From contig JAAUUW010000002.1 in the NCBI GenBank assembly GCA_012030735.1, positions 1 through 59,507 of the forward strand: DNA of 59,507 nucleotides, given 5' to 3'. Each line of letters opens with the position of its first letter. The stretch's first letter is position 1. Below, piece by piece: positions 57,048 to 59,507 of the stretch. A program made the translations under genes and the position numbers. Source of the DNA: Acaryochloridaceae cyanobacterium SU_2_1 (GTDB lineage Bacteria; Cyanobacteriota; Cyanobacteriia; Thermosynechococcales; Thermosynechococcaceae). The notes below the pieces were generated by a model. It did not search any database and was not told the origin of the DNA. It saw only the letters and a program-made list of their open reading frames with translations.

Positions 57048-58863
57048 TTACTCTTCAGTTTTGGTTTCTGGGGTTTCAGGCTTAGTTTTTAACTCTTCGG
57101 GATGGCTGGGTGGAATGCCCTCAACACTAACGAGCGTTTCTAAGACCGCCTTGACAATGGGTGCAGCAGTCGTTGAGCCATAGGCGTTGTCGCCCTTTGG
57201 CTCATCCACAACCGCCAAGACAATATATCGGGGTGACTCTAAGGGAAAAGAAGCCACAAAGCTGGTAATCCGAGCATTCGTATAGGTGCCATCCCCAGCC
57301 TTTTGAGCTGTGCCCGTTTTGCCACCAAGCCGATACCCAGGTATTTGTGCTGGTTTCCCGGTCCCCTTCTCCACCACATTTCCCATCATCAATCGCACTT
57401 GAGCAGCAGTCTTCTCCGAAAAAATCCGCCGGGGTTGAATTAAATTAAGACTTTTGACTTTCTTGCCCTCTGGGTTATATAGACCTTCCACCACATGAGG
57501 GGTGACTAGCTGACCACCATTGGCGATCGCAGCATGTAATTGGGCCATTTGGAGCGGTGTCACGGAAAAACCCTGACCAAAGGCAGCCGTTGCCAACTCA
57601 ATGGGGTAGTCAACAAACTGCTCCCTAGTCTTGAAATGACCGGGTGTTTCGAAGGGTAGGTCTGTGCCTGTAATCTGACCAATGCCAACTTTTTCGAGAT
57701 AGTCAAAGTAAACCCCCGGCTTCAGGGTTTTCATGACATGAACCATCCCCACATTACTGGAATATTCTAAAATCTCGCTAATATTCAGGGGGCCATGAGC
57801 GGAGCGATCAGCATTATTAATCGGCCAGCCCCCCACAGAAATGGAGCCACCGTCATTAAACACACTATTGGGTGCAATGCTGCCAGTCTCTAGCGCGATC
57901 GCAACATTAATGGGCTTAAAGGTTGACCCCGGCTCATATAAATCTGAAACAGCCCAATTTTTAAATGTCTCGGCATCCTTGACCTCAAAATACCGCTCCG
58001 GCTCAAAGGATGGCTCCGACACCAAACTCAACAAAGACCCATCTTTCACATCCATCACCATCACGGTACCCCGCTTGGCCTGAAACTGATTCATGGTCTT
58101 TTGTAGGGCTTGACGAGCAGACCGCTGCAATCTTGTGTCTAGGGTAACCTGCAAAGTGAGTTTATTGGCATTCAGCGCTTCCAAGGGAAATCGATCCGGT
58201 AGCACCTTACCCCGGGCATCGTGAGACACCACCAATGGGTCCAGTTGCTCTTCCAAAAACGGCTGCTGACTATATTCCAGACCAGCTTGACCTTTACTAT
58301 CGGCATTGACATAACCCACCACCGTAGAGGTCAAGTCCCCCTGGGGATAGACTCGCTGCCATTCCTTTGTAATTTCCAACCCATCCATCTGCAAGGGTTC
58401 AATCTTGGCAGCATCCTCCTCCGACAAATAAGCCACCGGAATGCCGGTGTCTGCTGTTTGCCATAGCTTGATCAGATTCTCAGCAGGCTGATTTACAATC
58501 GGTGCCAAGGATTGAGCGATCTGATCGGATGGTTTGAAAACTGGATGGGATGAGCAAATAGCCGAAAACCGGTTCATCCTTGGCCAGAATATTGCCCTGG
58601 CGATCAGCAATGGGATATCGATAGGTGCGCGCAGAGAGGGGGGCAAGTTGCTGCTTGCGAGCTTGAGCCTTCAAAAAAGGGGCTGCAGCAACCTGTAAAT
58701 AGGCTAATCGAACAGCCAGCCCCACTTGGCTACCCAGCAGAACCAGACAGACCAGCAACAGCCTAAATCGATAATTGATAATCTTATCGGGACTTTTAGC
58801 TTTGATGCGAGCTTTAATGGCTGAGCGGCGATTTTGAGTAGAAGTAGGGGGCGGGGTGGGCAT
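57048..58863 (-). CDS. ftsI: Peptidoglycan D,D-transpeptidase FtsI (PBP2/PBP3 type), frameshifted twice
   Basis: Septal cross-linking enzyme. About 605 residues after repair. One N-terminal membrane helix (residues about 32-55) follows a basic tail. The pedestal and transpeptidase domain hold the catalytic serine in EPGSTFKPI, the SSN motif in EYSSNVGMV and KTG in GGKTGTAQK. Two T-run deletions, near 58566 and 58538, split the frame at residues about 100-110. Repair gives EPVFRLFAHP and then FKPSDQIAQSL as in homologues. It lies 12 bases downstream of the FtsL-like gene. Confidence 0.9.
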
Positions 58864-58875
58864 TGCAATAGCGAC

Positions 58876-59394
58876 CTAATATCCAATCGGTGAAATAGTG
58901 ACAGGAGAAACAGCGGATGTCGGTGGTACCGGCTTGTTTGGGCGCGGCGAAGCTGGCTCCACAAAGATGGTGGTTTGCGACCCTTTGGGTATAAAGCCCC
59001 TTGGGGCCTTTTCTACGGTTTCGGAAATCTCGTATTTACGTTTTTCGCTACGGGTCAGCCACTGTCGCTCGCTGCGTTCTAATTCCTCCAGTTTGCTGTA
59101 GCGATCGCCCCAGAATCTCTGAGTGTTAGCAGTCCAGGCGTAGAGAGGTAAGATCCCTAGGACTAGCAAGCACAAAACAGGTGTTGAAATCTTGCGAAGG
59201 GCCATCAATAAAATTAACCAATCAGGAAACTGAGGAGATAATGGATCCATCCCCTTTATTTCTTGACTGTTCCTAGAAAAGTTCTGGGTTGATTTATTGA
59301 TAGATGGAATTGAAGAGAAGTTTGATGATAATTGCTCAGCAGAATGATTGAGGTCACCCACTGAAGATGGCTGAGTGCTGCTGGCAACGGTCAT
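58876..59394 (-). CDS. FtsL-like small bitopic protein upstream of ftsI
   Basis: 172 residues. A cytoplasmic tail of about 66 residues, rich in Ser and Asn, one membrane helix (residues about 68-87, ISTPVLCLLVLGILPLYAW) and a charged helix that could form a coiled coil (SKLEELERSERQWLTRSEKR), then a Pro-rich tail. Size and topology resemble FtsL, and the gene lies 12 bases before ftsI, the position FtsL holds in many bacteria. Cyanobacteria are generally said to lack a recognised FtsL. No sequence motif proves the identity. Confidence 0.62.
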   Translation of the reverse strand: MTVASSTQPSSVGDLNHSAEQLSSNFSSIPSINKSTQNFSRNSQEIKGMDPLSPQFPDWLILLMALRKISTPVLCLLVLGILPLYAWTANTQRFWGDRYSKLEELERSERQWLTRSEKRKYEISETVEKAPRGFIPKGSQTTIFVEPASPRPNKPVPPTSAVSPVTISPIGY

Positions 59395-59507
59395 AATGAA
59401 ACTCCTCTAGCCCCAATTTTAAAGATTCCTGAAAAGGTCAATTTCAAAATCTAGCCAAAAAGCTCGTTATTGAAAATGACACATGCAATTATAAATGCAT
59501 TAAATAT

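Follow-up and report, generated by a model that had tools for sequence, protein, structure and literature searches.

Immediately upstream of ftsI, Acaryochloridaceae cyanobacterium SU_2_1 encodes a small bitopic protein that, judged from its sequence and those of its relatives, is most probably a divergent variant of FtsL, a known kind of division protein with a new branch. Reviews count both FtsL and FtsB among the division proteins that cyanobacteria lack, and the introduction of the paper on CyDiv states that neither was detected there (PMC4748335). Chlamydia provides a precedent for an overlooked FtsL (PMC4643143). A literature survey by titles and abstract openings, with most subscription papers and all preprints outside its scope, returned no description of a cyanobacterial FtsL. 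The identification made in the preliminary description, an FtsL candidate, is supported by gene order and by proteins from other classes of the phylum that join the cyanobacterial family to canonical FtsL.

A small bitopic protein encoded next to ftsI

Within the window (the whole stretch of 59,507 nucleotides analysed), the gene and its surroundings comprise the following features:

59395..59507, minus strand: upstream edge of the contig, resembling the rsmH–ftsL intergenic region of relatives
58876..59394, minus strand: ftsL candidate, 172 amino acids, stop codon included (ORF and homologue counts)
59158..59214, minus strand: transmembrane (TM) segment, residues 61–79 (hydropathy maximum, mean Kyte-Doolittle 2.04)
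59008..59223, minus strand: single unbroken helix predicted by AlphaFold2, residues 58–129, membrane span plus periplasmic helix
58954..58998, minus strand: conserved block past the helix, residues 133–147, GFIPKGSQTTIFVEP (alignments)
58879..58890, minus strand: conserved C-terminal tail PIGY, residues 169–172 (end-residue counts)
58480..58863, minus strand: N-terminal part of ftsI, 127 amino acids, ending in a frameshift (ORFs, homology)
57048..58646, minus strand: remaining ftsI in another frame, PBP dimer and transpeptidase domains (PF00905, E 5e-75)

The candidate ORF begins with ATG, and 12 bases separate its stop codon from the ATG (58863) of the ftsI N-terminal ORF, the spacing originally described. 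A hydropathy scan finds a single hydrophobic segment. In the AlphaFold2 model, the helix that includes this segment has a block pLDDT of about 84–97, and both ends of the protein are disordered and of low confidence; structure prediction for the homologue from Roseofilum likewise gives one helix. The small bitopic protein with a helix past its membrane segment, as first read from the DNA, is thus borne out by the ORF, hydropathy and the predicted structure. The block GFIPKGSQTTIFVEP aligns with the LGM..P...i.i region of FtsL proteins from the sister classes (the other classes of the phylum). No strand is predicted for it in the isolated chain, and the single-chain models of the candidate and of the Roseofilum homologue contain no terminal beta-strand of the kind by which FtsL joins the FtsQ–FtsB sheet, a feature to be judged in the complex.

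In this assembly, ftsI is split into two overlapping ORFs by a frameshift, with homology switching frame near 58533–58554; relatives possess a whole ftsI. An assembly error and a real mutation are indistinguishable at this site.

Distribution and gene order

A search with the candidate protein alone found homologues in 36 of 39 relatives. The profile A1, built from 30 relatives, had matches in 142 of the 386 phylum genomes searched, and all matches listed belong to the class of the source organism. Judging by the named relatives and by GTDB taxonomy, this class would comprise the photosynthetic cyanobacteria, the remaining classes of the phylum being non-photosynthetic. When 12 class genomes lacking an A1 match were inspected by way of ftsI, 10 showed, immediately upstream of it, an ORF with a GY end; the other two were G085, whose contig reaches about 540 bases further upstream and then stops, and G151. 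With a wider profile (A10, 47 rows, six near-duplicates omitted), the gene was found in 376 of 388 class genomes, including 331 of 334 good genomes, and in 157 of 160 genera. The candidate ftsL is a core gene of the class, and these counts, together with the 36 relatives, place the reality of the small ORF far beyond chance.

Gene order was compared across 68 cyanobacterial loci, one per genome (eight loci were omitted because their genomes already had one, and L282 of G454 is not in the set). A same-strand ftsI lies downstream of the gene in 58 of them; ftsI is elsewhere in nine, and one locus (L031) runs into a contig end. Nineteen named cyanobacterial loci (L154–L172) were sampled from ftsI instead: in 17 the gene lies at most 250 bases upstream, in L157 (Hormoscilla) it is 1.95 kb away, and L171 lacks it. 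The synteny check proposed at the outset, for which absence of the gene upstream of ftsI in relatives would have counted against the reading, therefore came out in its favour. In many bacteria the position between rsmH and ftsI is that of ftsL (PMC8871954). Here rsmH lies within 800 bases upstream in 18 of the 68 loci, 16 of them from the family of the source organism; RsmH identity was checked for five loci (PF01795, E 1e-99 to 1e-108). The full rsmH–gene–ftsI order is also kept in ‘Candidatus Cyanaurora vandensis’ (L169), and thus persists both there and in the family of the source organism. The triplets found in this sample are not completely dispersed.

In the source genome itself, rsmH ends near the edge of another contig (C97). 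This edge and that of the contig carrying the candidate (C117, 59395..59507) match consecutive parts of the spacer between rsmH and the gene in close relatives, and for this reason the genome very probably keeps rsmH–ftsL–ftsI; the two contigs share no exact overlap that joins them, and their adjacency is taken from the relatives. Close relatives share, in the spacer between rsmH and the candidate, a GCATTTATAATGCATG-like stretch that includes a TATAAT-like box (59482–59507; L084–L086), a possible promoter. In loci of family f2, which has small genomes (L102–L107), ftsI is followed by an ORF of roughly 390–400 amino acids, the start of which presumably resembles transaldolase; in L102, the one locus checked, a gene for an Rce1-like protease precedes ftsL.

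Relationship to FtsL of the sister classes and of other phyla

In eight loci from the other classes of the phylum (alignment A3), a small bitopic ORF also lies just upstream of ftsI, preceded by rsmH in seven. These slot proteins combine an FtsL-like end (for example VESRAQAMGMQPVEQYHYISI, L139) with a tail such as PPIGF. The A3 profile matched 206 of 292 sample genomes at E≤1, and most other genomes of the sister classes were matched. By hhalign, a set of 13 sister proteins scored 98.6% (P 4.8e-15) against FtsL-slot proteins from other phyla (28 sequences); for 53 cyanobacterial proteins against this sister set, the figure is 92% (P 9e-8). Thirteen of the 30 sister proteins went into the set, which excludes family f40 as more divergent; with all 30, the value is 92.1%. 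L205 entered the canonical set cut back to an inner start, and A4 omits it. When the columns of the cyanobacterial alignment were scrambled in three ways, none of 240 controls attained the score of the 92% match. In genome-wide searches of 145 cyanobacterial genomes, A5, a profile of the sister proteins, hit four places at E<1e-3 (G088, G445, G454 and G427), all of them the candidate gene, and A3 added two further hits on it (G043 and G227). Four weaker A5 hits that were checked (G417, G444, G422 and G428) fell on other ORFs. At E≤1, A5 reached 37 of the 145 genomes and missed 108, the source genome included.

Directly compared, the cyanobacterial family and canonical FtsL match at 53–58%, a level also reached by 6 of 40 heptad-rotated controls. 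The direct match is thus not above generic TM-coil similarity, and the step to canonical FtsL therefore rests on the sister-class intermediate. The family–sister match itself falls to 27% without the TM segment and to 13% without both TM segment and tail. Searches with Pfam and NCBIfam returned only chance hits for the candidate protein, as did Pfam for 30 relatives, and a PDB profile search found no FtsL. The Pfam model of FtsL, PF04999, exceeded its cut-off in none of 194 genomes of the phylum, but this search is uninformative because the model is insensitive, detecting only 2 of 14 well-known control genomes. With such sensitivity, calls of FtsL absence based on this model are weak.

A further feature shared with the sister classes is the C terminus. 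The last residue is Y in all 68 cyanobacterial loci; the residue before it is G in 52, A in 8, S in 4 and N in 4. An end of the form [GASN][YFW] occurs in 53 of 53 cyanobacterial and 30 of 30 sister-class proteins but in none of 28 canonical FtsL proteins; the sister-class ends are all [GA][FYW]. The linker that precedes the tail is variable and often proline-rich in the alignment, a pattern such as a short docking motif would give. We found no literature report of a conserved small-aromatic tail. FtsL-slot proteins with a GY end also occur in two metagenome-assembled genomes (MAGs) titled Actinobacteria (L179:3359-3916) and Proteobacteria (L192:3313-3870); the tail may extend outside the phylum, or these genomes may be mistitled. 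In a model of a Roseofilum FtsL–FtsI read-through, FtsI is confident, the FtsL helix block has a pLDDT of about 77–88, and the tail is mostly below 50; a fold search with this model matched 8bh1_B (Z 50.9, rmsd 4.2, 496 aligned), over the FtsI part only.

These data bear on whether the protein is related to FtsL at all. A non-homologous small bitopic protein could have taken the ftsL slot and come to do the same job by convergence, as the generic level of the direct canonical match and the weak similarity to the sister classes past the TM segment would allow. We regard this as unlikely, given that all four sister-profile hits below 1e-3 in whole genomes fall on the candidate gene, that no scrambled control attains the family–sister score, that cyanobacterial and sister-class proteins share the tail, and that ‘Candidatus Cyanaurora’ retains the gene order. 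A second alternative is that the protein is FtsB/DivIC (PF04977), which has the same architecture of TM segment and coiled coil; FtsL and FtsB are themselves alike (hhalign of DivIC against canonical FtsL, 98%). An assignment to FtsB/DivIC is nevertheless very improbable: the family shows no profile similarity to it, with hhalign giving 0% against 15 sister-class DivIC proteins of the same architecture and a DivIC profile giving a single weak hit (E 1.1) among 30 members; moreover, the slot of the candidate adjoins ftsI, and in the sister classes DivIC is encoded by a gene of its own, in addition to the slot gene.

The sister classes (L069–L083) have a clear DivIC/FtsB gene, and a profile made from them found nothing convincing in 77 genomes of the photosynthetic class (best E 0.006). 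This null result, and a tail without counterpart in canonical FtsL, would also fit a cyanobacteria-specific accessory factor that stabilizes or targets FtsI outside any QBL-type complex. Such a factor is quite improbable as well, for the same tail is found on the canonical-looking FtsL in the sister-class slot. A proposed FtsB/DivIC-like protein of Anabaena, CyDiv (All2320), is described as exclusive to filamentous cyanobacteria (PMC4748335). Like the candidate, it is small, sits in the membrane, has a coiled coil and is linked to division, but its TM segment is at the C-terminal end. We also considered and rejected CyDiv as the candidate gene itself: all2320 is distinct, and ftsI is alr0718.

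Proposed role in septal peptidoglycan synthesis

The candidate shares with FtsL of E. coli and Pseudomonas (PF04999) the slot between rsmH and ftsI, the bitopic topology, a helix that runs unbroken from membrane to periplasm (predicted in the candidate) and a further conserved segment past that helix. It differs in matching no Pfam model and in having GL(V/I)P..P..tIFl in place of the IE..A...LGM..P signature; it also has a long disordered, presumably cytoplasmic N terminus and the small-aromatic tail, and no FtsB is known to accompany it. FtsL of the sister classes (A3, A5) agrees with the candidate in slot, in Y..TV past the TM segment, in helix length and in a GF, GY, AY or AW tail end, but it retains an LGM-type signature as in canonical FtsL, and DivIC/FtsB is present in the genomes that encode it. 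The cyanobacterial gene is most probably a divergent orthologue, vertically inherited from an ancestral rsmH–ftsL–ftsI unit.

In the structure of Pseudomonas FtsWIQBL, helix 1 of FtsL lies on the FtsI pedestal, helix 2 and strand 1 touch the transpeptidase domain, and FtsL completes the FtsQ–FtsB sheet (PMC7614612). The source genome encodes FtsI and an FtsQ-type POTRA_1 domain, and because these are present and the order of parts is comparable, we read the candidate as an FtsL acting between FtsQ and FtsW–FtsI. Taking FtsL of E. coli and Pseudomonas as a model, we infer orientation, contacts and activation: the N terminus would be cytoplasmic, and the single helix would span the membrane and run beside the FtsI pedestal. 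Mean net charge over 53 sequences is +2.6 before the TM segment and +1.3 after it, with no clear bias in the candidate protein itself. The segment past the helix would reach the FtsI transpeptidase domain and FtsQ, and FtsL would thereby couple FtsQ to FtsW–FtsI, switching on septal peptidoglycan synthesis. The flexible, proline-rich linker would present the phylum-wide small-aromatic tail to a partner. More tentatively, cyanobacterial FtsL might work without a recognizable FtsB, wired through the tail as a phylum-wide docking motif to a partner that replaces or supplements the FtsB link; we consider this possible but doubtful.

The supposed absence of FtsL and FtsB had left the control of FtsW–FtsI by FtsQ in cyanobacteria unexplained. 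With an almost universal gene at the ftsL position, most probably a divergent ftsL, the missing part of the division set would narrow to FtsB, and the phylum-wide C-terminal motif would offer a handle for the search for a partner.
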